DNA of 64,000 nt from assembly GCA_017616895.1 (NCBI GenBank), contig JAFZXE010000012.1, positions 93,582 to 157,581 on the forward strand. Reading direction: 5' to 3'. Made by a program: the position numbers and the translations under genes. This document shows, in pieces, positions 16,883 to 37,709 of this stretch. The first letter of the stretch is position 1. Every line of letters begins with the position of its first letter. The notes under the pieces are model-generated. The model saw only the letters and a list, made by a program, of their open reading frames with translations. It ran no database searches and was not told the DNA's origin. Source of the stretch: Bacteroidales bacterium (lineage in GTDB: Bacteria > Bacteroidota > Bacteroidia > Bacteroidales > P3).

Positions 16883-18352
16883 ATGAATGATAGCATACAC
16901 AAACTTCTGGTCAACCTCTTTTTCCTTTTCCCTTTACTCATCTCTGCCTATGCACAGGTCTCACCCCTCGACTACGGTCTCCGAGAAGCAACCAACGGCA
17001 TCGACCGCTACCACGCTCTTTACCGTGCCCATACCGAAGCTGTCGCCCGCGGACTTAACGTCTCATACGAGGGTATAGACACTCTTCACCTAGAGCTACC
17101 GCCCGATTTCAAGTCCGTCCCGCTTGGCACCTACACCGACTTCGGCGGTCTCGTCCTCTATGTCACCAACCACTCCGCCCATGGAGCCCTCTTTTCTCGT
17201 ATCGCCACATCCCATCCCGTCTCTTTCGACAAATCTCTCATCGACTCACTCGACTTCCGTTCCCTCCCTGAACTCGCCACCGGACACCATCTCCTCGTCC
17301 TCGAAGACCTCACCCCATGGACCGAACGTCGTGGCTACGGCTATCAGCAATACCGTCGGGACATCCTCGTACTAAACAACGGCATCGCCGAAAATGCCCC
17401 AGTGACCTCATGGAACACCGACTCCACCCAACTCAAAGCCACATACTATGACTTCAGCCCCGACCTCAACATTGAAGTCAAAAACCTCACTCTTCACCGC
17501 GTCAAAGGTTCCACCTTCCGCACCTATTGTCTCGCATTGGTTGGTCAGCAGGGCGTCACCGTATCCAACATTCGCGTCACCACTCCTCGCAGCCGTATGA
17601 TTGCCGATGGAGTGTTCTCTATTAGCAACTGTGCCAATCTGCTTTTTGACCGCGACACCGTCGAAGGGACCTACTCTGGCTACGGCACTTCCCGCAACTA
17701 CGGCTATGCTTTCTCCATGAACAACGTCTATAAATCATCTTTCACACACATCAAAGCCTACGGCAACTGGGGCGTATTTGGCACCAATAACCTAAGCAAC
17801 ACCTATCTTGGCGACTGCGATGTTGACCGCTTCGACATCCACTGCTACGGTCGGGATGTCCAGCTTAAGAACTGTACGCTTCGTGGTCGTCAGACACTCT
17901 TTTCCTCTATGTACGGCACCGTTGTCTTCGATTCTTGCCATTTTATCGACTACACGCCCGTCCGTGTCCGCTCCAGCTATAACGCCTACACGCCATTTGA
18001 CATAATAATAAAAGACTGCACTTTTGAATTAACTCGCCGATACCATTCCATTGTCCAAATCGACATGCTTGACACAGCCGACAACCCTCGTCCCGAGCTC
18101 AATCCCAAATGCTGGCCAAACCTCAAAGTCGATAACCTCACCGTCGTTGTTCCAGCCACTATAAGAACCATGAATATCTTCAACCCCAAGGGCAACGTCA
18201 AAGAACTCCGTCGCGAGTTCGACTATATCAACAAGGTCGAGATCAACGGCCTAAACTCAGTCCGCCCCAACGGCAAGCCATACAAACTATCACTCCGCCT
18301 CTCAACCAAAGATTTCAAAACCAAGACACCATTAAACTACTCCGTTAAATAA
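16883..18352 (+). CDS. Secreted protein, probable right-handed beta-helix
   Basis: 489 residues from the ATG at 16883; a longer frame opens upstream but includes the promoter and is AT-rich. The signal peptide ends LLISAYAQ (about residue 25). The body has repeated short strands with Asn/Asp/Cys turns (NLTLHRVKGSTFRTYC, NIRVTTPRSRMIADGVFSISNC, GDCDVDRFDIHCYGRDVQLKNC) typical of parallel beta-helix proteins of the pectate-lyase or phage-tailspike type. No catalytic residues can be assigned. It is transcribed divergently from the fibronectin-III adhesin and followed by a terminator. It lacks a T9SS C-terminal domain, so it is periplasmic or surface by another route. Confidence 0.75.
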   Translation: MNDSIHKLLVNLFFLFPLLISAYAQVSPLDYGLREATNGIDRYHALYRAHTEAVARGLNVSYEGIDTLHLELPPDFKSVPLGTYTDFGGLVLYVTNHSAHGALFSRIATSHPVSFDKSLIDSLDFRSLPELATGHHLLVLEDLTPWTERRGYGYQQYRRDILVLNNGIAENAPVTSWNTDSTQLKATYYDFSPDLNIEVKNLTLHRVKGSTFRTYCLALVGQQGVTVSNIRVTTPRSRMIADGVFSISNCANLLFDRDTVEGTYSGYGTSRNYGYAFSMNNVYKSSFTHIKAYGNWGVFGTNNLSNTYLGDCDVDRFDIHCYGRDVQLKNCTLRGRQTLFSSMYGTVVFDSCHFIDYTPVRVRSSYNAYTPFDIIIKDCTFELTRRYHSIVQIDMLDTADNPRPELNPKCWPNLKVDNLTVVVPATIRTMNIFNPKGNVKELRREFDYINKVEINGLNSVRPNGKPYKLSLRLSTKDFKTKTPLNYSVK

Positions 18353-18371
18353 CCCTCTTTCCCACGCCCTC

Positions 18372-18410
18372 AAGGATTCTTCATAAAGGATGTTGGTTGA
18401 ATCCTTTTTA
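18372..18410. terminator. Intrinsic terminator after the beta-helix gene
   Basis: AAGGATTC (18372-18379) pairs with GAATCCTT (18399-18406), then TTTA. The loop of 19 nt is long. It separates the beta-helix gene from the convergent VWA gene. Confidence 0.65.
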
Positions 18411-18512
18411 TTGTGTTCCCCCACTCCTCAGAAGTGATTGTATTAGGTGTTAGTGTATGTATCCCATCGAGTCTGATGATCCGAACCGATGAATTATTGA
18501 TTGCCTGGTAGG

Positions 18513-20534
18513 TTATGCGGAAATGTTTCTTTCGCGTTTTCCTTTTTTTCTGGTTGAAAGTTCTCGTATTTTTCTGTGGAATTCTTGACGAGATAATTCG
18601 TTATAGGGATTGTATATGATATTTTCATCAAAGGATTCTATGGTTGATTTATTGGCGGATTCTCCGATAACAATTGAGTAAAAAGAGGTGCCTTTGGTTT
18701 GTTCTTCTTTTATTGCATCCGATAGGTGCTGAGGAATATTTGCCATTACAAAATCCGAAATCATCAAGACATCTGCATTTTTATAGTTTTCCGTTTTAAG
18801 CTGGTTTAATGATTCTGAGAGAGCAGGCGCAGCATCTGTTCCCCCATTGAAGGATTTGTTTAGGAATTTCACAAGGGTGTCTAGTGTATTACTTTTGTTC
18901 AGTTTTGATAAGTCCAATGTTTCGATATCCGTTGAAAATGAAATCAAATAGCATTTCCTATGACTTTTTAATGCGCTTTTGGCTATGGCTAAAGTTGCTA
19001 CTTTTGCGGTTTGCTCAGGAGTTCCGTGCATGCTTCCGCTTGTATCTACGCATATTATTATTGGCCCTGTGATATCCTTTTCTTTTGATTCTTCAATTTC
19101 TTTTCGTCGAGTTTCACTATAAGTGTAATGCTCGTTGTCGGAATAGCTATATGACAATAATCTTTTCTCGGCAAATTTCAAATAGAACAGGTCTTCCAGT
19201 TCTGGATCATTCATAAGACCTGTTTCAGATGGCACTACACGGTTAATGTCATTTGAATATTCAAAACCGACAATATTTCCGTGCTGTGCGTTTTTTGGAT
19301 GATAGGTGCTGGATATGACGGTTTCTTCTATTAGTTTTTTTTCGACTTCTTTGGATGTTACAGATTGTCTTCCCAGTAATTCGGCGAATTCCTGCAAGGC
19401 ATGATCCTTGTTTAAAAGCATTGAATACTTCGCGAGCACGTCAAAGCCTAAGTTCCGGAATGGAGAAGACGATAAATCCCAAAGGTAACCGTGCCCCAAA
19501 TCGCAAACAAATGGACGTAAGAGTTGTTCAAGTTTTTGGAAGTTTTCAATTTTTTTGTACAACTCCTCAAGAAATTTTTTCCGAAGATTATCTATCGATT
19601 TCTGCTCAAATTCAGATCTCCTTGTGTGATACGATTCCTTAAGTGATTTAATTAGTGCATAAAAGTATGAGTTCTGATATGTTTTTTTCTTTTTTTCCTT
19701 TTCTTCGGCAGATTCAATTTTATCTAAGTCGCCATTAAGCGACTTTAGATATTTTGTCATGGAGAAGAATCTTTCAACAGTATTTAAATCGTTATATTCT
19801 TTTTCAAATAGACTGACATTTTTAAAGAACTCTGAGGGAGATAGGGATTCTAATTTGTCAAGAAATATTTTTTCGGAAGCAAATTGTTTAGAACACTCAA
19901 ATTCAACTCCTTCTTTAGTCTCTTCTGACCATTTCAGTATTTCGGATTGGACATCTTCAGATAGTTCTTCGTGAGAAAACAGGTATTGGTTGTAGCGCTT
20001 GTCAAATTGTTCTGCTGTGTCTTTAACTATATCGCTTCCGGTGGGGTATTTCGATTTATTTGCATCTGGGATATTGTCATCGAATGAATCTTCTAATGCA
20101 TCAACTATTCTTTTTTTTGTTTCTTCACTTCCAAAAGTTTGCGTTAAACTTTTTTCAAAACGTCTTTTGCTCGTGTTTTTTGAATAGGTGCTGGTCAGCT
20201 GATTTAGTCTTTTTTCAAGTGTGGGTAGTACTTTTGTGAACTTTTGTTTCCAAATGGAATAGTCCGTCGTTATGTCGAAATTTTCAGTGCCTTTACGATG
20301 TGCGAATCTGTTGCGGAGTTCATGTATGGTATCGTATGCTTTGTGTGGGATCCCGCGTGAATCATTTTTGTTGATTTCTTTTAGGGAGTTACCAAGTTCA
20401 ATTGTTTTATTCTTAATACTGTCGAAAGTGGTTTCCGATTTTTCCCCACCATCAAAATTTTCAATAAGTTTTTTCAGCCTATCGACAATCTCTAACGACT
20501 GTGTTGCCAATTTTCGACTAGATGTGTGTTTCAT
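18513..20534 (-). CDS. VWA-domain protein with N-terminal HEPN-like domain (ViaA-like partner of MoxR ATPase)
   Basis: 673 residues from the ATG at 20532-20534; a start 10 codons earlier is possible. The C-terminal part (about 485-655) is a von Willebrand A domain with a complete MIDAS: DTSGSMHG, the Thr in FNGGTDAAPAL and the Asp in MISDFV. This matches ViaA/CoxE-type VWA proteins, which bind a MoxR ATPase. The first 115 residues are helical and contain LRNRFAH (R74-x4-H79) followed by DYSIWKQKFTKVLPTLEKRL, the layout of HepT-type HEPN RNases. The middle 350 residues are charged helical, probably coiled coil. It overlaps the MoxR gene end by 17 bases. AT-rich, with TTT/AAA codons unlike its neighbours. 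Known for the family: ATPase-VWA pairs remodel target complexes. Inferred: the HEPN part is an effector. Confidence 0.8.
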   Translation of the reverse strand: MKHTSSRKLATQSLEIVDRLKKLIENFDGGEKSETTFDSIKNKTIELGNSLKEINKNDSRGIPHKAYDTIHELRNRFAHRKGTENFDITTDYSIWKQKFTKVLPTLEKRLNQLTSTYSKNTSKRRFEKSLTQTFGSEETKKRIVDALEDSFDDNIPDANKSKYPTGSDIVKDTAEQFDKRYNQYLFSHEELSEDVQSEILKWSEETKEGVEFECSKQFASEKIFLDKLESLSPSEFFKNVSLFEKEYNDLNTVERFFSMTKYLKSLNGDLDKIESAEEKEKKKKTYQNSYFYALIKSLKESYHTRRSEFEQKSIDNLRKKFLEELYKKIENFQKLEQLLRPFVCDLGHGYLWDLSSSPFRNLGFDVLAKYSMLLNKDHALQEFAELLGRQSVTSKEVEKKLIEETVISSTYHPKNAQHGNIVGFEYSNDINRVVPSETGLMNDPELEDLFYLKFAEKRLLSYSYSDNEHYTYSETRRKEIEESKEKDITGPIIICVDTSGSMHGTPEQTAKVATLAIAKSALKSHRKCYLISFSTDIETLDLSKLNKSNTLDTLVKFLNKSFNGGTDAAPALSESLNQLKTENYKNADVLMISDFVMANIPQHLSDAIKEEQTKGTSFYSIVIGESANKSTIESFDENIIYNPYNELSRQEFHRKIRELSTRKKGKRERNISA

Positions 20535-22503
20535 AGCGAGCTTTTTCTTTGTCAAGTTTTTCAATGAGGTCCTCTATGTTGGCTTTGGCAGTTCTTAGTT
20601 CGTTCTCTATTATGGGTAGATATTGTTCTGTGTTTGCAAAGATATTGTTCCCAAACTTCCGCTCGGAGTCTTTTAGGTGTTTTGATATTGTGTCTTTTCC
20701 GTTGTTCAGTTTTTTCTGTAAAGGCGTGTATTTCTTTTTGTTGAAATGGTCAATAAACACTTGTAACTGTTCGGGAGTAAAGCCATCTTTGAATTCATAT
20801 TCTATTGATGCTGATTTTTTCTTCGTTTTATATGTGGTGTGTTTTTCATTAAAATTATTTTCATCGTCCCATTGTCCATACAAATTGCTTCTCAATATTC
20901 TGCCATCATCCGATTGGTAATACTCGCGTGAATTCCAAGTTGTCGGATCTTTTGAGATGTATAATTTTTCGTTGTTGTCAGTCTCGATTTGATAAAATAT
21001 TTTATTTTCTATCGTCTTTGTAATTGGAGTTCCTCCTTTGGATATTTTATTGAAGAAATTCTGATCAACATCTTTTTTGAATGTGTCCACCCCACTTTCA
21101 TAAGTTGAATAATCATCACTGTATTTTAGTCCGTGTTTTTCGATAGCTTCGCAGACAATTTGTTTCGCATCCTTTTCTTGCTGTTCGGTTCTCCATATAC
21201 AATCTGCAATTAAAGTCGCATCCATTATGTTAGTTTCGATGCGATTGTTGCAATATGCTGAAACTCGCATCAAGTTGACTATTTTTTTCCATCTACGGTC
21301 TGAGACCAAGAACTTCTCATTATCGTCTTGTATCTCGGAATTTCTTAATGTGATTTGCTTCCTAACGAAGTCTATTATATCGTAGCACTCGTCGCTTATC
21401 TCCACCGATTCGGAGTCTTTCTGAATCTCGTCTATGAGCTCTTTGGTTAGTTTTTGTGTAATATTTGTCGTGACCTTTTTTTCGGCAGCAATCATTTTTC
21501 TGAAATTCTCTTGATCGGAGATAGGCTTTTCTAAAAGCCGTATCAAGAATCTGTCATAGATTGCATCAAGACCTAATCCTTTTTCAGGCAATTCGTTAGA
21601 TGCAGACATGAATCCAATGAGCGGTACGGATTCTATTTTGGTGCCGTTCCTGTATATTCTCTCGTTCAGGATGGTGAGTAATGCGTTTTGTATGGCGGGA
21701 TTGGCCTTCCATATCTCGTCTAAAAAGGCAAATTGAGCTTTGGGAAGAAATCCGTCTGTTTTTCTCACATATTTGTCGTTTTTTAGTTCGTTTATTGATA
21801 TCGGACCAAAAATCTCGTCTGGTTGGGAAAATTGATTCATCAGATAATCAAAGAACTTGACAACACCGCTCTCTTCGGTAGGCTCCTCAAATGCTTCTGA
21901 TACTCTGCGGGCAACAAGGCTTTTTGCGGTTCCAGGCTCCCCAAGCATGAAAGTACTTTCGCCAGCAAGTGTCGCAAGTAGAGTGAGTCTTATTGCTCGT
22001 TCCTTTTCATATAATCCATTGTTCAGTTCTTCAAGAAGATTCTTTAAGAGTATGTTGAGTTTTGATTGGGTAGATTGTGTGACTGTTTGTGTTGAAACCG
22101 TGGTGTCGGACTCTTGGAAGGTTGAGTTCTCATTTGTATTTAGTTCGTCTGATACTGAAAGGCCGTTGTTGCTGTGGCCAGTTTCCGTTTGTGTGGGCCC
22201 GTTTTCTGTTTCGTTGGTTGGATTATCTACAGATGATTGGATTTCTGAAATGACATCTCCATATTCATCGTCTTTTTTTACGGAAAGTGTTTGTATCTTT
22301 TCGTTGATGAGGTTTAGCCAGTTGTAGTTGCCTTTTTCGTCTTTGTATTCTGGATATGTTTCTTTTATAGAGTTCTTGAGTTTGGGTTTTAGGTTGTGTA
22401 GTATTATACCCAATCTGTTCTCCCCTTTATCTCTCAACGATTTAATGAGGATGACCTGAAATTCGTTTAATGCATCGGCATTTTCGGATTGATCGTTTTT
22501 CAT
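20518..22503 (-). CDS. MoxR family AAA+ ATPase (RavA-like)
   Basis: 661 residues from the ATG at 22501-22503; an upstream TTG would add 15 residues. The AAA+ core has Walker A GEPGTAKS (about residue 188), Walker B AFLDEIWKANPAIQNALLT (about 260), sensor 1 SASNELPEKG and the Arg-containing DRFLIRL, all close to RavA of E. coli. The RavA beta-barrel LARA insertion is not evident; the C-terminus is charged and helical. The first 75 residues (ILIKSLRDKGENRLGIIL to NYNWLNLINEKI) look like a small winged-helix or LOTUS-like domain, joined by an 80-residue Ser/Thr/Asn-rich linker. Cotranscribed with the VWA gene. AT-rich, suggesting transfer. Confidence 0.85.
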   Translation of the reverse strand: MKNDQSENADALNEFQVILIKSLRDKGENRLGIILHNLKPKLKNSIKETYPEYKDEKGNYNWLNLINEKIQTLSVKKDDEYGDVISEIQSSVDNPTNETENGPTQTETGHSNNGLSVSDELNTNENSTFQESDTTVSTQTVTQSTQSKLNILLKNLLEELNNGLYEKERAIRLTLLATLAGESTFMLGEPGTAKSLVARRVSEAFEEPTEESGVVKFFDYLMNQFSQPDEIFGPISINELKNDKYVRKTDGFLPKAQFAFLDEIWKANPAIQNALLTILNERIYRNGTKIESVPLIGFMSASNELPEKGLGLDAIYDRFLIRLLEKPISDQENFRKMIAAEKKVTTNITQKLTKELIDEIQKDSESVEISDECYDIIDFVRKQITLRNSEIQDDNEKFLVSDRRWKKIVNLMRVSAYCNNRIETNIMDATLIADCIWRTEQQEKDAKQIVCEAIEKHGLKYSDDYSTYESGVDTFKKDVDQNFFNKISKGGTPITKTIENKIFYQIETDNNEKLYISKDPTTWNSREYYQSDDGRILRSNLYGQWDDENNFNEKHTTYKTKKKSASIEYEFKDGFTPEQLQVFIDHFNKKKYTPLQKKLNNGKDTISKHLKDSERKFGNNIFANTEQYLPIIENELRTAKANIEDLIEKLDKEKARYETHI

Positions 22504-22549
22504 TTTTTTTGTTTTTTTATGGTTGTTTTTTATTTCTATTGGGTACAAT

Positions 22550-22586
22550 AATGGGGGTACACTCTGATATGGAATATACCCCCATT
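22550..22586. terminator. Strong inverted repeat between dnaK and the MoxR gene
   Basis: AATGGGGGTA (22550-22559) pairs perfectly with TACCCCCATT (22577-22586), loop 17 nt. It lies just after dnaK (minus strand) and 47 bases before the MoxR start. The T-tract (GTTTTTTTTG) follows the stem on the plus strand, the wrong side for dnaK, so its role is uncertain. Confidence 0.5.
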
Positions 22587-22621
22587 TGCTGTTTTTTTTG
22601 TGTTAGGCTTTTAGAAAATCG

Positions 22622-24580
22622 CTATTTCACCTCTTCGTAGTCAACGTCGGTCACGTTGTCACCTCCGTTGCCGTTTTGGTGGTTGTTGCAGTCGCCTCCG
22701 CAGTTGCCGTTGTTGCAGCCTGCTCCGCCCATGTTGTTGGGGTCGAAGCCTGCTCCGGGATTGGCTCCGCCGGCTTGCTGCTGTGCCTGGTACATCTCCT
22801 GGCTTGCAGCTTGCCATGCGGCGTTGATTTTCTCCATTGCGGCGTCAATCTGCTGTACGTTGCGTGCGCTGTGGGCGGCCTTCAACTCGTTGAGTGCGTT
22901 CTCAATGGCATTCTTCTTGTCGCTCGGCAGCTTGTCGCCGTAGTCTTTCAGATTCTTCTCGCTCTGGAATATCATGCTGTCGGCAGCGTTGATTTTCTCC
23001 ACCTCTTCCTTAGCACGCTTGTCGTCTGCGGCGTGGGCTTCGGCTTCTGCTTTCATTCTCTTTATCTCGTCATCCGAAAGTCCCGAAGAAGCTTCGATGC
23101 GGATGTTCTGGCTCTTGCCGGTCGCTTTGTCGAGAGCGCTGACGTTCAGTATGCCGTTGGCATCGATGTCGAAGGTGACTTCAATCTGAGGCACTCCGCG
23201 TGGTGCTGGCGGTATGCCTGCCAAGTGGAAGCGGCCTATCGTCTTGTTGTCGTTGGCCATGGGGCGCTCGCCCTGCAGCACATGTATTTCTACTTCGGGC
23301 TGGTTGTCAGCTGCGGTTGAGAATACCTGCGATTTCTTGGTCGGGATGGTGGTGTTGGCGTCGATGAGTTTGGTCATCACACCGCCGAGAGTCTCGATAC
23401 CCAGCGACAATGGCGTCACATCAAGCAGCAGCACGTCCTTCACCTCGCCGGTAAGCACACCGCCCTGAATTGCGGCTCCGATAGCGACCACCTCGTCGGG
23501 GTTCACGCCCTTGCTCGGGGTCTTGCCGAAGAATTTCTCCACAATCTGCTGTATGGCGGGGATACGTGTTGAGCCGCCCACGAGGATGACCTCGCTGATG
23601 TCGTTGTTCGAAAGACCTGCGTCCTTCATGGCCTGACGGCAGGGTTCAAGCGTCGCCTGGATAAGATCGTCGCACAGCTGTTCAAATTTAGAGCGGGTCA
23701 GTTTCTTCACTAGGTGCTGTGGCACGCCGTCGGCAACGGTGATGTAAGGCAGGTTAATTTCAGTTTCCTGGCTCGATGACAGCTCGCATTTGGCCTTCTC
23801 GGCAGCCTCTTTCAGGCGTTGCATTGCCATCGGGTCTTTGCGCAGGTCGATGCCCTTCTCGCTCTTGAATTCGTCGGCAAGCCAGTTGATGACCTTCAGG
23901 TCGAAGTCGTCACCGCCGAGGTGAGTGTTACCGTTGGTGCTCTTCACCTCAAACACTCCGTCGCCCAAGCTGAGGATGGAGATATCGAATGTGCCGCCAC
24001 CGAGGTCGAACACGGCGACGTTCATGTCGTTATTCTTCTTGTCCAAGCCGTAGGCGAGGGCGGCAGCGGTAGGCTCGTTCACAATACGGCGCACCTTCAA
24101 GCCTGCGATTTCGCCGGCCTCCTTGGTGGCCTGACGTTGGCTGTCGTTGAAGTAGGCTGGCACCGTGATGACCGCCTCGGTCACCTCTGTTCCCAAAAAG
24201 TCTTCTGCCGTCTTCTTCATCTTCTGAAGCACTATGGCCGAGATTTCCTGCGGGGTGTAAAGCCTGCCGTTAATATCTACACGCGGAGTGTTATTGTCGC
24301 CGCGTACCACTTTGTAAGGCACCGACTCAACCTCTTTCTGCACCCTGTCAAACGTCTCGCCCATGAAACGCTTGATTGAATAGACGGTGTTGTGAGGGTT
24401 GGTGATAGCCTGACGTTTTGCGGGGTCGCCCACTTTACGGTCGCCCCCTTCTACAAAACCAACCACCGAGGGTGTCGTGCGGTTGCCTTCGCTGTTGGCG
24501 ATGACCACGGGCTCGTTGCCCTCCATGACTGCTACGCATGAGTTGGTTGTTCCTAAGTCGATTCCAATGATTTTACCCAT
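22622..24580 (-). CDS. dnaK: Molecular chaperone DnaK (Hsp70)
   Basis: 652 residues. The ATPase domain starts [21 protein letters not shown] and contains [15 protein letters not shown] and [14 protein letters not shown]. The linker region [19 protein letters not shown] precedes the substrate-binding domain, and the C-terminus ends VDYEEVK. Folds and refolds proteins with DnaJ and GrpE, neither of which is next to it here. The start is the ATG at 24578-24580; the frame is open further upstream but the family N-terminus begins here. The disordered C-terminal tail holds three cysteines and a histidine ([19 protein letters not shown]), unusual for DnaK. A sigma-54-type promoter lies 60-80 bases upstream, and no TAnnTTTG box was found. 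Confidence 0.98.
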
Positions 24581-24640
24581 AACTTTTATTTTTTTTGATT
24601 TATAATTCTTGTTTGTGGTGCATACTAAGCACATCCCTTT

Positions 24641-24660
24641 GGAAGCAATTTCAGTGCCAA
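24641..24660 (-). promoter_or_regulatory. Sigma-54 (-24/-12) promoter of dnaK
   Basis: Minus strand TTGGCAC-TGAAA-TTGCT. GG and GC are separated by exactly 10 bases, as RpoN promoters require. The predicted start site is near 24633, giving a leader of about 53 bases. Confidence 0.6.
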
Positions 24661-24672
24661 ATAGATGACTAC

Positions 24673-24696
24673 TGTCAGATTGGTGACATTTTGTCA
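24673..24696 (-). promoter_or_regulatory. TGACA/TGTCA palindromes upstream of the sigma-54 promoter
   Basis: TGACA-TTT-TGTCA (24684-24696) plus another TGTCA at 24673-24677, which pairs with TGACA at 6-base spacing. They sit about 40-63 bases before the predicted dnaK start site and could bind an enhancer-binding protein. Confidence 0.4.
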
Positions 24697-24705
24697 TATA
24701 TGGTG

Positions 24706-31812: not shown

Positions 31813-34800
31813 TTATTTTACTTTTATAATCTTTGCGTGGGTCAGCTCTTTGTGTCCGTCTTTGGTGCGAATAACTATGCGGGCGATGTACATGCCGTTC
31901 GCCACTTCCGCGCCGTCGCTGCTGCGCATGTCCCAGGGGGCGGTTATCACATAGCTTCCTTCGAGGGCTTGGGGCGTCAGGGTTCTGACTACCTGTCCTA
32001 CCGCCGACATTATGTCAATGCTCACCTCGTCTATCTCGCTTATGTTGTTGTGCTCTATGTGCAGCATGGTACTGCTCTGAGTTGGGTTGGGGTAGGCGTA
32101 GCAGCGTCCTATGGTGAGACTGTCGTCGCTGCGAACAACAAAGGTGATGGTCGCCTCGTTCGAGTAGTTGTATATGTTCCACGCTTTCAGCGTGAGGGTG
32201 TGTATTCCTGGAGTGAGGTTGCTCAAACCATACACTACCTGTCCGCATCGGCTGTCTTTGAGGTCGGTCTCATAGAAGTCGTTGAGGGTTATCTCGCTGT
32301 TGGCGTTGCCGTCGAGTACGGCTGTAATATTGTGACCTATGCCGCTGCCGACTGCATTGATGCCCACTTTGTCCGACAGACGGGCATAGATTGTCGGGTT
32401 CTCGTCGGTGATGCCTCCGTTATGGAAGGTGCTGTCGTTGATGTAGAGGTCAATCTGCGGACGGCATTCGGTGAGGTCGGCATCCTGGTTGAAGCCGCCA
32501 ATCATCAGGTCGTTATGGCTGCCGCTGGCGCAACGCTCGTCGTCGCTCTTTGCAAAATGGCTCAGCTTCACCCTGTCATATCTCGGCGACACGTCTCGCG
32601 GCACTATGAAGCTGTATTCGAATTCTCCTGCCGTTACGGCGGTGTGTCCGCGGTATATCACGCTGTTCTGCTGGGTGAAGCGCACCTCGGTGCCTTCGTT
32701 GTCGTTGGCCTGGGTTTGTGTGGTGGTCGGGCGGTCGAACACGGTGGCGTAAATCGTACCGTTGAAGTTCGTAAGCTTAACTCCGTCGCTGTCAAGCACC
32801 TCGCCTTTGATGATGACTTTCGACAATACCTCGGCACTGTCGCAAACTCCCTCTGTCACAGCCGCTCCGTTTATTTCCGTCACCGTCACGCGGTTCTCTG
32901 GAATCGAGAGTTTAAGCGCTGGGTCGCCCAACAAGACGAAGCTGTGTGACACGCTTGTGGCGTTCTTTGCCAGACGCAGAGCGTCTCCCATACTGTTGCC
33001 TGGCGTAAGGGCGTTCAGGCAGATGTCGCCATCGAATTTCTCAATATGTCCGATGGGGCGCGTGGCGGTTATCACACCTATGGCGCCGCCGTCGGCGTGC
33101 AGCAACAGTTCGCTTCCGCTGGTGGGGCTCAGCTTGTCGAAACGGCCATAGCTGCAGGTGCTCGTCACAAAGAGTGCCAGCTGGTCGCGGTTGGCGTAGT
33201 TGTTGATGTCCGAAAGCTCTATGTAGCGCTCGGTGCCGATATACTCTACCGAGCCGTGCCCTATGTAGTTGAACAGCAGGCATCCGTAGTCGAGCCGCTG
33301 ACGCAGGGCGTTGTTCACGTCGGGATAGTATGAGCCGATGGCGCTGGATTGCTGGGTGTAGGCGTCGGCGTAAATCTTGTCGATGTTCATTTGCGGGAAG
33401 GTGGCGTTGATTTTCCTCGCAATGTTCTCCGACGAACTTGCAAAGACGCTGTCGCCTGGCGACGAGGGGTCGGCGTCGTCGGCCAGCAGGGTGACGTAGT
33501 TGCGCCAGTCGCCGCGAATCTCCGCTCGCTTCAGGTCGCTCTTCTCCAGATATCTCCGTACCTTCGCCACCAGGTGGTCGGCTTCAGCTGTGTTGCGAGC
33601 CGGCAGGCGGCCTATACCCACTTCCAGGCTTTCGTTCTGCGAGCCGCTCTCTCCGTCGTCCAGATAGCCGAACAGGTCGTCGGTGCAGTACGAGCCGCCT
33701 TCGTCGGTAAACGAGGTTTCCGACTGGCAGGTCAGCACCTGCGGCAATCCGTTGGCGAGGATGTCTTTGTTGTCGTATGAGCCGCAGCCGAACAGCAGCA
33801 GGTATCGCGGGCTTGTGGTGCCGTCGCCGCCCTGGGCGCGCTTGTAGAACATGCGAAGCATCTCCCTCACCGCCATCGGGTCTTGCTTGCCCGACGAGAA
33901 CTCGTTCCATACTTTCTCAGGAGTCACTATCAGCGTGCTAAGCCCGTCGTATATTAGGTGCAGGTTGGCCAGTTCCTGGGCTTGTGACACGAACGTGGGG
34001 TGGGTTAATATCACCAGGTCGGCACCGCTCTCGCCGTGCAGGTCTTGGTTGGCAAGCTGCGTGACGTGATTCGGCGAGATATATCCGCCGTCGAACATCA
34101 CGTAGTGCCCTACACTCTCTGCTGGGTTGCAGAAAGTGGCGGTGTTGCCGTTGCGGGTCAGCGCCATCTCCACCACGCTGTCGTTTTTGGTTACGTCCCA
34201 TACCCTCATGGCGCTTGTGGCGCTGCCTATGCTGAACTTCGCCACGTTGCCCGCGCCCAAGTGCTCCAGGTTGTATATCTCCGACTGCCCGCCGCGGAAG
34301 GTTAGGGGAGAGGTGGCGTTCAGCTCTATGAAGTCGAGGTATCCCGTCGATTGGTTCTCCGAGTAAGAATAGCTTATGTTGAAGTTGGCTGTGGCCGACG
34401 AGGCGTTGTAGGTGTTGCGCATCACCACATACGGGCGGTCGGGGTTGAAGTCGGCTCGCTGGCTGCTTCCGCCGTAGGTCACGTTGAACTGTGTCGAGCC
34501 GGTCGATATGCTGGCTAAGGCAATCCGCGCTCTCAGCTGCGACCCGGCCGTCACCGCCGGCAGAGTGAGCGAGAAGTTTCTGGAGGTGGTTGTGGTGGTG
34601 AATTTCTCTCCCACCCAAATTTGACCCGTTGAATTGGTGTTGATTAGGTCGTTGTCAATCAGCGCCGTCGAGGTGTAGTTGGTTATTGTGTTGGTGTTGG
34701 CCTCGGTGGCGGTGACCGTAGCTATGCGTTTCGGTGCCGCAGTGCTGTTGGTGGTTATATAGTAGTAGTTGTATTTCGCGTAGGGATGCCGCTGGTGCTC

Positions 34801-35229
34801 AATCATGCCCGACTGCGAGTTGTATTTCCACACGTCTGCTCCTTCAGCATAGAACAGCAGATAGTCGCCGCCGTCCATCCGTCCGTTGCCGTTCTGGTCG
34901 TAGATGCTTATTGCAATTTGCTTTAGGTCGTTGGGGCGCTCGGCGTTGTTCGTCATATCCATCAATCCTCCCCCGTTGCCATACACACCGATCTTGTCAC
35001 ACTCAGCGCCACTCAAGCCCGGCACATCCGCTGCGCTCACCTTGCACACGCCGCATTTGTCAAACGACATCCGATACCACGACCCCTCCGCCAGCACGGA
35101 ATGGGCGGGATAGGTTTGTGCTGAAACACTAAGACACAATGCCGTGAGGCTGATAAAAACCAAACTTTTGACGGAGCGGGAAACAAAGCGTTTCAGGTCG
35201 ATGCGGTATGTGGTAGTCGGTATGCCCAA
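31813..35229 (-). CDS. porU: T9SS C-terminal signal peptidase/sortase PorU
   Basis: 1138 residues. Cell-surface cysteine protease of the gingipain type that removes the T9SS sorting domain and attaches cargo to lipopolysaccharide. The catalytic pair is visible: His in NYIGHGSVEYIG (about residue 658) and Cys in VTSTCSYGRFD (about 692). The N-terminal signal ends LCLSVSAQ. C-terminal Ig-like domains include YAYPNPTQSSTMLHIEHN and KIIKVK, itself similar to the sorting domain. No ATG is available; the start is the TTG at 35227-35229, 35 codons before the signal cleavage site, giving a long n-region. Confidence 0.95.
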   Translation of the reverse strand: MGIPTTTYRIDLKRFVSRSVKSLVFISLTALCLSVSAQTYPAHSVLAEGSWYRMSFDKCGVCKVSAADVPGLSGAECDKIGVYGNGGGLMDMTNNAERPNDLKQIAISIYDQNGNGRMDGGDYLLFYAEGADVWKYNSQSGMIEHQRHPYAKYNYYYITTNSTAAPKRIATVTATEANTNTITNYTSTALIDNDLINTNSTGQIWVGEKFTTTTTSRNFSLTLPAVTAGSQLRARIALASISTGSTQFNVTYGGSSQRADFNPDRPYVVMRNTYNASSATANFNISYSYSENQSTGYLDFIELNATSPLTFRGGQSEIYNLEHLGAGNVAKFSIGSATSAMRVWDVTKNDSVVEMALTRNGNTATFCNPAESVGHYVMFDGGYISPNHVTQLANQDLHGESGADLVILTHPTFVSQAQELANLHLIYDGLSTLIVTPEKVWNEFSSGKQDPMAVREMLRMFYKRAQGGDGTTSPRYLLLFGCGSYDNKDILANGLPQVLTCQSETSFTDEGGSYCTDDLFGYLDDGESGSQNESLEVGIGRLPARNTAEADHLVAKVRRYLEKSDLKRAEIRGDWRNYVTLLADDADPSSPGDSVFASSSENIARKINATFPQMNIDKIYADAYTQQSSAIGSYYPDVNNALRQRLDYGCLLFNYIGHGSVEYIGTERYIELSDINNYANRDQLALFVTSTCSYGRFDKLSPTSGSELLLHADGGAIGVITATRPIGHIEKFDGDICLNALTPGNSMGDALRLAKNATSVSHSFVLLGDPALKLSIPENRVTVTEINGAAVTEGVCDSAEVLSKVIIKGEVLDSDGVKLTNFNGTIYATVFDRPTTTQTQANDNEGTEVRFTQQNSVIYRGHTAVTAGEFEYSFIVPRDVSPRYDRVKLSHFAKSDDERCASGSHNDLMIGGFNQDADLTECRPQIDLYINDSTFHNGGITDENPTIYARLSDKVGINAVGSGIGHNITAVLDGNANSEITLNDFYETDLKDSRCGQVVYGLSNLTPGIHTLTLKAWNIYNYSNEATITFVVRSDDSLTIGRCYAYPNPTQSSTMLHIEHNNISEIDEVSIDIMSAVGQVVRTLTPQALEGSYVITAPWDMRSSDGAEVANGMYIARIVIRTKDGHKELTHAKIIKVK

Positions 35230-35310
35230 TTGAAATGCACTATAAAACTATATATATAACCGAATTTCATTAATAATATTGCCCTAATGATTATAAGGGG
35301 AATGGGAAAA

Positions 35311-35345
35311 AACATAAAACCCCAGATTTGGTGGGGTTTTGTGTT
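35311..35345 (-). terminator. Intrinsic terminator after the first T9SS cargo gene
   Basis: AAAACCCC (35316-35323) pairs with GGGGTTTT (35333-35340), loop 9 nt. On the minus strand it is followed by ATGTTTTTTCCC. It separates the cargo gene at 35384 from porU. Confidence 0.75.
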
Positions 35346-35383
35346 AAGGGCTGGACGAGTGAATGTCGGATAATGGAGCGGGA

Positions 35384-36517
35384 TTATTTGATTGCCAGTT
35401 TGCGGGTGGTGGTGCCTGTGGGGGTGGTGATTTTGAGGGTGTAGAGGCCTGGGGTGAGGGTTGAGGTGTCGAGGGTTGTGGTGGTGCCGCAGTTGCGGAG
35501 GGTGCGTATTAGGCGGCCGTTGATGTCGCGGAGGGTGAGTTCAAGTATCGGCGCATCGCAAGTCACGACGGAATAACCGCTAGCCGGGTTGGGATAGATG
35601 TTAATTTCGAATTCTGAATTTTGAATTTCGAAGTTGTCGATGCCTTCGTCACCGCCTGGGTTGTCGGGGTCGGGGTCTTCGGGGGCGGGTGGTTCAGGTG
35701 CCTCTGCTGGGAATGGTATTACCTGCGTCATGCTCGGCTCCTCCCATTCGGGCAGAGGAGTTATGATCGGGAAGAAATAATCCCACGAATTATACGCATT
35801 TCCGCTGACACAATGCTCATCGTAATATGCAACATACGTACCTGGACCCTTGCACAATGTGGGTTTAAAATCGCTGCCGTTGGACGTTCCCAGCCGCATT
35901 ATCCACCAAAGCTGTGCTCCGTCGACCTCTTTAAACCCGTTGAAATAGAATTCAAGCACCTGTCGATACAGAACCGTGTCGATGCAGTTGTCGTAGGGTT
36001 CAAATCCCTCCCAATGGGTAAAATCCAGGTCGCTTCTGAGAATGGGGATTTCTATCCAGCGCCGTTTGCCAATTTCGCCGCCTTTAATGGTTATTGAGTC
36101 GAGTGGGACGAAATGGTCGCCGGCGGCGTCGCACAGGGTTACTGTCAGCGAGTCACCCTCTGTAAAATTCACAATAGTGTCGAGAGCAATGGCTATACCA
36201 TAGACTCTGGTCTTAGGTTCGCTTAACTTGTAATACATATAGGGGCAAAATCTTCCAGACGAAATTGTTCCAATGTACCCGTTTTGATCATGAAAAATAT
36301 AATCTCTAAAGGAGTCCCTTCCCATTTCAGTAAAGCCAACTCCATTGGGGCAGCCATCTATATATTCGCCTGTTTCAAAGTTTGACACACCTAGGTTCCC
36401 CGACCTAAGGAAATGGTTGTCATATCGGTAATAATTTGTGTCGATGGTGTCCTGCGCTTTTAAACCCGACACCGAGACTAGAAGTATGATAATGCAGAAT
36501 AAAATATTTCTTTTCAT
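35384..36517 (-). CDS. T9SS-secreted protein, paralogue 1
   Basis: 377 residues. The signal peptide ends VSGLKAQ and the mature N-terminus is DTIDTNYYRYD. The central 200 residues (SEPKTRVYGIAIALDTIVNF, SITIKGGEIGKRRWIEIPI) look like a beta-sandwich; no enzyme motif. A Pro/Asp-rich linker (PEPPAPEDPDPDNPGG) leads to the T9SS type A sorting domain starting NIYPNPASGYS and ending RKLAIK. The bases just before the sorting domain (35603-35633) are 7-bp TTCAAAA-type repeats, read as FEIQNSEFEI. Its last 100 bases are almost identical to those of the neighbour at 36582. Function unknown; surface exposure is likely. Confidence 0.8.
   Translation of the reverse strand: MKRNILFCIIILLVSVSGLKAQDTIDTNYYRYDNHFLRSGNLGVSNFETGEYIDGCPNGVGFTEMGRDSFRDYIFHDQNGYIGTISSGRFCPYMYYKLSEPKTRVYGIAIALDTIVNFTEGDSLTVTLCDAAGDHFVPLDSITIKGGEIGKRRWIEIPILRSDLDFTHWEGFEPYDNCIDTVLYRQVLEFYFNGFKEVDGAQLWWIMRLGTSNGSDFKPTLCKGPGTYVAYYDEHCVSGNAYNSWDYFFPIITPLPEWEEPSMTQVIPFPAEAPEPPAPEDPDPDNPGGDEGIDNFEIQNSEFEINIYPNPASGYSVVTCDAPILELTLRDINGRLIRTLRNCGTTTTLDTSTLTPGLYTLKITTPTGTTTRKLAIK
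35603..35633 (-). repeat. 7-bp repeat units inside the cargo linker, paralogue 1
   Basis: Minus strand TTCGAAA, TTCAAAA, TTCAGAA, TTCGAAA. Same unit as the intergenic TTCAAAA repeat at 1717; read in frame as FEIQNSEFEI. Confidence 0.65.
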
Positions 36518-36581
36518 AGTGATGTATGTTTTACTATAGTTAGTTGTAATTTTTTGGAAAAACCGTCATGGGAAGGCTGAA

Positions 36582-37709
36582 TTATTTCACTGCCAGTTTG
36601 CGTGTGGTGGTGCCTGTGGGGGTGGTGACTTTGAGGGTGTAGAGGCCTGGGGTGAGGGTTGAGGTGTCGAGGGTTGTGGAGGTGCCGCAGTTTCGGAGGG
36701 TGAGTATCAGGCGGCCGTTTATGTCTCGGAGGGTGAGTTCCGTTATGGGAAGGTCGCAGGTGATTGTGGTGCGGGAGTCGGCGGGGTTGGGAACTATGTT
36801 AATTTTGAAAGCTGAATTTTGAATTTCGAGGTTGTCGATGCCTTCGTCACCGCCTGGGTCGTCCGGGTCGGGGTCGTCCGGGTCTGGGTTGTCTGGGTCA
36901 GGAATGACAGCTCCGTCTGGACATGGTATAACCTGTGACATACTCGATCTTTCCCATTCTGGCAGAGCAGTTATCAGTGGAAAAAAACAATGCCATCTGT
37001 AGATCCTTCCTGCATACCTTCCTTGTTCGGAGTAAAAGTCCACAGAACAATAATAACCAGGGCCTGCCTCGCTCGTAAGTTTAAAATCACTGCCATTCTC
37101 GACCGATAGCCTTGCCTTCCACCAAAGACTCGACCCACCCACACGTACAGGTCTATCAAAATAAAACTCAAGCACTTGATTATATAGGATCGTATCTATA
37201 CAATTATCTAGGGGTTCACGATAAGTGCTCGAGATATTACTATACGCAATAGGAATTTCCATCCAACGACGTTTGCCGATTTCACAACCTTTTATCGTTA
37301 TGGAGTCAAGATGAACAAAATGGGTGCTGTCGTCGGCCATATCGCACAGAATAACCATGAGGGAGTCTCCATACGTAAAATTTGCAATGCTGTCTATCGC
37401 TATGGCAATGCCGTAAACCGTCTGATCTTTGCTTAGTTTGTAAAGCATATATGGGTTACAACTGACTTGCCCATAACTAAGATATCCGTCAAAGTTACCA
37501 TTAACCCAAAATATGCCATGATTTAAGAACCCAACACCGTTGGGGCATAGATTAACTGTTTCCTGCGTATAAGGATCCACATAACCGTATATTCCTGGTC
37601 CGAAGTTGATGTCATATCTATAATAGTTCGTGTCAATGGTGTCCTGAGCTCGTAATCCTGCCGCCGCGCCAAGAAGCATTACAATGCCTATTATAACTGT
37701 CTTTTTCAT
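36582..37709 (-). CDS. T9SS-secreted protein, paralogue 2
   Basis: 375 residues, closely related along its whole length to the next gene: signal ending AAGLRAQ, mature start DTIDTNYYRYD, central TVYGIAIAIDSIANFTYGDSL and SITIKGCEIGKRRWMEIPI. The linker has repeated DPDNPDPDDPDPDDPGG, then LEIQNSAFKI from a 7-bp repeat and the sorting domain NIVPNPADSRTT to RKLAVK. The leader before the start also matches its paralogue (TTTTTCCAAAAAATT about 40-50 bases upstream), so the whole transcription unit was duplicated. Function unknown; secreted by the T9SS. Confidence 0.8.
   Translation of the reverse strand: MKKTVIIGIVMLLGAAAGLRAQDTIDTNYYRYDINFGPGIYGYVDPYTQETVNLCPNGVGFLNHGIFWVNGNFDGYLSYGQVSCNPYMLYKLSKDQTVYGIAIAIDSIANFTYGDSLMVILCDMADDSTHFVHLDSITIKGCEIGKRRWMEIPIAYSNISSTYREPLDNCIDTILYNQVLEFYFDRPVRVGGSSLWWKARLSVENGSDFKLTSEAGPGYYCSVDFYSEQGRYAGRIYRWHCFFPLITALPEWERSSMSQVIPCPDGAVIPDPDNPDPDDPDPDDPGGDEGIDNLEIQNSAFKINIVPNPADSRTTITCDLPITELTLRDINGRLILTLRNCGTSTTLDTSTLTPGLYTLKVTTPTGTTTRKLAVK
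36801..36832 (-). repeat. 7-bp repeat units inside the cargo linker, paralogue 2
   Basis: Minus strand CTCGAAA, TTCAAAA, TTCAGCT, TTCAAAA; read in frame as LEIQNSAFKI. Confidence 0.65.

Follow-up and report, generated by a model that had tools for sequence, protein, structure and literature searches.

What does a RavA-like ATPase do when its ViaA-like partner carries an extra, HEPN-like domain at the N-terminus? A 64,000-nucleotide stretch of a Bacteroidales genome (contig JAFZXE010000012.1; hereafter the window) raises this question through a two-gene module on its minus strand, at 18513-22503, in which a MoxR ATPase gene is followed by a VWA gene, and which an earlier note made from the sequence alone had put forward as a candidate conflict system. 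The gene pair, the fusion, the conserved ATPase, MIDAS (metal ion-dependent adhesion site) and HEPN-type residues, the sporadic spread and the variable insertion site are all directly established, and residues 1-125 of the VWA protein have a HEPN-like fold in a predicted model. On balance, we consider it reasonably likely that the module is a horizontally spread RavA-like MoxR ATPase ring acting on a ViaA-like VWA partner with an N-terminal HEPN ribonuclease, and it is probably a defence or growth-arrest system.

A RavA-ViaA-like gene pair with an N-terminal fusion

As described in the earlier note, the module consists of two overlapping open reading frames (ORFs): the MoxR ATPase gene (22503-20518, 661 residues) and the VWA gene, which runs from an ATG at 20534 to 18513, encodes a HEPN-ViaA fusion protein of 673 residues and begins 17 nucleotides before the MoxR gene ends. 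RavA-ViaA has this same order, the MoxR ATPase coming first and a MIDAS-bearing VWA protein second. The ATPase (20518..22503) matches the NCBIfam RavA model PRK13531 with an E value of 3.1e-83 over model positions 12-306 of 498 and RavA in the PDB with 1.8e-67, its best Pfam match is bpMoxR (1.3e-49), and its RavA score of 280.5 bits lies below the NCBIfam equivalog cut-off of 681 bits. Walker A (GEPGTAKS, from residue 188; 21919..21942), Walker B (FLDEIW, from residue 260; 21709..21726) and sensor-1 (from residue 300) are all present.

The ATPase also has a divergent C-terminal region and an N-terminal extension (approximately residues 1-150; 22054..22503) made up of a short putative domain and a low-complexity linker. 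The first 100 residues of this extension gave only chance-level matches against Pfam (best 0.036), with no family found, and an RNA-binding OST-HTH domain, considered as a candidate for the MoxR N-terminus, was dropped because Pfam gave no support. Among homologues (labels in G and L denote genomes and loci), N-terminal extensions are present on the L004 and L017 ATPases and absent from those of G203 and G903.

In the VWA protein, residues 126-673 form a ViaA-like core (18513..20159, including the stop codon); the protein matches the NCBIfam ViaA model PRK10997 at 1.7e-75 over positions 39-473 of 487, with a score of 255.1 bits that is below the equivalog cut-off of 500 bits. The VWA domain itself (18750..19061; Pfam VWA_2, 3.2e-10) bears out the complete MIDAS claimed for it, with DTSGSM starting at residue 497, GGTDA at 564 and SDF at 593. 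D497, S499, S501 and D594 are found in all 18 aligned proteins and T566 in 17 of them. Because the start of the ViaA core coincides with that of some plain ViaA-like proteins (those of L007 and L022 start 4 residues before the core's start point), the extra domain is best described as an N-terminal fusion.

The HEPN-like domain

The added N-terminal domain, of about 125 residues (residues 1-125; 20160..20534, minus strand), looks like HEPN in its motif and in its predicted structure. Its RNRFAH segment (20298..20315, minus strand) holds the predicted catalytic residues R74-N75-x3-H79, which the earlier note had read and numbered correctly, and the conservation of R74 and H79 that it had set as a check extends to all seven homologous domains. 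R74, N75 and H79 are the sole invariant columns of the domain, and all seven show the HEPN trait of an R-x4-6-H motif whose arginine is followed by a polar residue. At the homologous place, RN...H occurs in 6/6 HEPN-form VWA proteins and in 0/12 plain ViaA-like proteins compared, so that by sequence comparison the motif exceeds chance. The domain drifts faster than the remainder of the VWA protein, and strict conservation of R, N and H amid this drift points to catalysis.

An AlphaFold2 model of residues 1-147, built from two sequences (predicted local distance difference test, 80.8; predicted template modelling score, 0.70), has four main helices, the third ending with the RN-x3-H motif, and HepT/HEPN toxins are among its best structural matches (9 of the 50 matches listed). 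The predicted four-helix, HEPN-like fold and the conserved motif thus uphold the proposal that the VWA partner bears a HEPN domain. The likeness to HepT toxins specifically was only partly sustained: the R-x4-H motif and the fold are shared, but the downstream order of Asp, Trp and LPTLEKRL is not common to all homologues. In HepT, the second residue past the histidine is an acceptor tyrosine (H-x-Y); in the seven domains this position is K, D, T, D, L, T and T, with tyrosine in none. HEPN domains have a second conserved acidic residue in helix 2 (typically E-x3-[KR]); its position holds N49 in the window and E in the other six domains, five of which have K three residues on.

Distribution and genomic setting

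Six intact HEPN-ViaA genes were found, spread over two phyla. A search of relatives with a single-protein query matched 3/61 genomes (the window's own, G037 and, in the VWA protein only, G048), and among 37 genus members only the own genome matched. At the level of the order, 14/393 genomes matched, three with the HEPN form (own, G037 and G203), one with a fragment (G362) and ten called domain-free by ORF length and motif. With an alignment as query, matches were obtained in 1/190 genomes of the own family, 2/104 of G037's family (both of the HEPN form), 1/7 of G203's family, 4/395 of the phylum (HEPN form in the own genome only) and 16/395 of the class. RN...H was found in no VWA ORF of twelve further class loci, a set that excludes G1380 and the second matches in G1140 and G1337 and in which the L051 ORF is cut at its left edge.

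One of 57 plasmid records, from Treponema, spans 80% or more of the query, and a plasmid search limited to the HEPN part of the window's VWA protein gave nothing at E up to 1. Two scans of viral contigs for the module gave no relative, and 11 phage records matched, none with more than 44% query coverage and none over the HEPN part; L004 was the sole locus found in genome_contigs. On the Treponema plasmid, a second, stand-alone HEPN-like ORF (RNRLVH; L017:14516-14803) sits between the MoxR gene and the HEPN-VWA gene and is apparently a tandem duplicate, its annotated start shortening the ORF. In G362, a degraded HEPN-ViaA relative (L027:1262-2250) lacks both MoxR and the N-terminus.

Phylogenetically, five HEPN proteins form one clade (100/99) that spans two phyla, with the G203 protein outside it. 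A single origin of the fusion was considered and not upheld: the tree needs two changes, and a one-change history appears in 0% of 200 bootstrap trees; its well-supported branches force at most one change. The domain may therefore have been gained twice, lost or exchanged.

The module fills a variable slot (18327..22622), directly downstream of dnaK (22622-24697; Hsp70 by Pfam) and flanked on its other side by a beta-helix gene, so named by look only, with no Pfam match. Near relatives G014 and G822 keep both flanks (~87% and 82-83% nucleotide identity) and hold other genes in the slot; of six dnaK surroundings compared, these alone have both flanks in common with the window. Together with the single match among 190 family genomes, this agrees with the expectation that homologues would lie outside the core loci of relatives. 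The AT bias that had been claimed for both module genes is real: GC and third-position GC (GC3) are 0.379 and 0.402 in the MoxR gene and 0.361 and 0.335 in the VWA gene, compared with 0.557 and 0.707 in dnaK and 0.496 and 0.598 in the beta-helix gene. Promoter- and terminator-like sites do not exceed the shuffle level, and no further non-overlapping ORF of at least 80 residues lies between the flanks of the module.

Candidate defence genes occur in two of the six dnaK surroundings, the other four having been scanned for one gene at most: G005 has an AbiEi-like gene and a transposase ~3.6 kb from dnaK, and G001 has HNH, PD-Lambda-1 and PDC-M38 genes. Around homologues of the module itself, a type III restriction enzyme lies ~2.3 kb before the MoxR gene of G203, which also has PDC-S05; a CARF protein is encoded ~6.4 kb before the Treponema VWA gene; and PDC-S04 and a type I specificity-like subunit are found 7-8 kb from the G362 fragment.

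Plain RavA-ViaA-like pairs were also seen beside genes of this kind. In G565 (L022:3481-10528) such a pair directly follows the candidate defence genes PDC-M65A and PDC-M65B on the same strand, and in G210 (L026:44-5551) another lies by a D12 adenine methyltransferase and an HNH protein, with which it perhaps forms a restriction-linked unit. Elsewhere in the window, 31813-37709 encodes a 1138-residue Peptidase C25 (gingipain-type) protein and two adjacent proteins with a Por secretion sorting tail.

Function and relation to known systems

Compared with RavA-ViaA of E. coli, the module has the same gene order, a MoxR core and an almost full-length ViaA core; it differs in the HEPN domain added to ViaA, in the extension added to MoxR, in an ATPase that leaves RavA positions past 306 of 498 unmatched and in its sporadic occurrence. 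MoxR-vWA ternary conflict systems, in the portion of Kaur et al. (2020, PMC7159879) available, likewise combine a MoxR ATPase with an effector-bearing VWA component, and bpMoxR is the Pfam family named for one class of them. In those systems an effector domain is joined to the vWA component, a trait that has its counterpart here in the predicted HEPN-like domain at the N-terminus of the VWA protein. Unlike them, the module has no third component gene between the conserved flanks and belongs to the RavA-ViaA branch; the RNase effectors in section 11 of that paper are PIN, Ntox3 and Csx3, not HEPN, which in the available portion occurs solely in the reference list.

Among HEPN systems, the motif, the polar residue after the arginine and the position at the end of helix 3 agree with HEPN RNases as described in the accessible parts of Anantharaman et al. 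(2013, PMC3710099), the main text of which never mentions vWA, von Willebrand, MoxR or RavA. MntA-HepT and other MNT-HEPN pairs share the HEPN fold and R-x4-H; the module differs in having no MNT partner gene, no H-x-Y tyrosine and a domain fused to a VWA protein. Type III-A CoCoNuTs (PMC11090510) bring TerY-like VWA genes and, according to a figure legend, a HEPN nuclease domain into the same extended operons, but their VWA domains are of the TerY type, their ATPases are others and they belong to McrBC-type restriction systems, with no HEPN-ViaA fusion described in the accessible text. In the available part of PMC8195603, HEPN is named as an effector carried by inactive STAND proteins and not by VWA. 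In line with the earlier note, HEPN fused to ViaA or to another MoxR-partner VWA protein was not found in the literature searched, a scope that leaves out supplements and most subscription papers.

Judging from these families, the HEPN domain would be a dimeric RNase that needs no metal and would be restrained in resting cells by the ATPase-VWA pair. Invasion or stress could then set off ATP-driven remodelling through the MIDAS that lets HEPN domains pair, and paired domains would cut RNA and stop cell growth; peptide capture and ATP-driven remodelling are the scheme proposed as common to MoxR-vWA systems in PMC7159879, as far as the available text goes. Sensing may fall to the fast-drifting surface of the HEPN domain and to the N-terminal extension of MoxR.

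Several results weigh against this reading. A profile search of the N-terminal segment, as the earlier note had suggested, did return HEPN Pfam matches, drawn from several independent HEPN families, but these are weak, mostly in homologues and never above cut-off, the best being a HepT-like match of 20.8 bits (cut-off 23.5) in homologue L006. In structural comparison, designed helical bundles score like HepT/HEPN toxins; a solved-structure profile search with six HEPN domains gave seven matches at E<=10, all designed or unrelated helical proteins with no HEPN entry, and single-sequence searches with the L006 domain and the full VWA protein found no HEPN entry either. The window neighbours include dnaK and recR, and the L004 and L036 modules follow a pyruvate:ferredoxin oxidoreductase gene (L004:2031-5573 by Pfam; L036:1-300 by a near-identical C-terminal end in frame 1) with ordinary-looking genes around. 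Of the five intact loci whose surroundings can be read (the G037 contig being too short), two have defence-type neighbours, a count from partly scanned neighbours with no background rate to compare. PADLOC-DB 2.0.0 returned 0 families for both window proteins at E up to 1. The proposed conflict role is thus likely, though the evidence for it is indirect: defence-type neighbours accompany only some homologous loci, and PADLOC has no model that matches the two proteins.

The module might instead be a RavA-ViaA-type chaperone of metabolic or respiratory complexes, its HEPN-fold domain having turned into a docking or RNA-binding part. The ViaA-like core, the RavA-like ATPase and the oxidoreductase gene preceding two of the six HEPN-form loci are all consistent with this, as is the reported work of E. 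coli RavA-ViaA with fumarate reductase and complex I (PMC10585395 and PMC3893208, in the parts available). We nevertheless think it unlikely, since housekeeping fits poorly with so sparse a presence in the family and with differing neighbours elsewhere, the strict retention of R, N and H points to catalysis, and the site common to L004 and L036 may reflect only shared descent. Rather less probable is an addiction pair resembling toxin-antitoxin systems, in which a lone HEPN-VWA protein would be toxic, the MoxR ATPase would neutralise it and the main benefit would be retention of the element rather than phage defence. The two genes are coupled, overlapping in both the window and G203, one copy lies on a plasmid, G362 retains a degraded remnant, and in MNT-HEPN pairs it is HEPN that acts as the toxin (PMC3710099, available part). 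Only one of the six copies, however, was on a plasmid record. A large AAA+ ring would also be an unusual antitoxin. That the helical domain is not HEPN and its RN-x3-H coincidental would accommodate the sub-threshold Pfam scores, the equally good designed bundles and the HEPN-free solved-structure profile search, and is very improbable given invariance in 7/7 domains at exactly the HEPN positions, weak matches across independent HEPN families and the place of the motif within the predicted fold.

More speculatively, the RavA-ViaA branch of MoxR-VWA systems could be a general immunity chassis in Bacteroidota, in which the effector here would be the fused HEPN RNase, set free when ATP drives remodelling, plain pairs such as those of G565 and G210 would serve other effectors, and the HEPN surface would have been shaped by an arms race. 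If the module is indeed a MoxR-VWA machine controlling a HEPN ribonuclease, a chaperone family known from metabolism would have become an ATP-controlled RNase switch, and a simple two-gene system would allow the control of effectors by MoxR-VWA pairs, a proposal from genome comparison (PMC7159879), to be tested directly.

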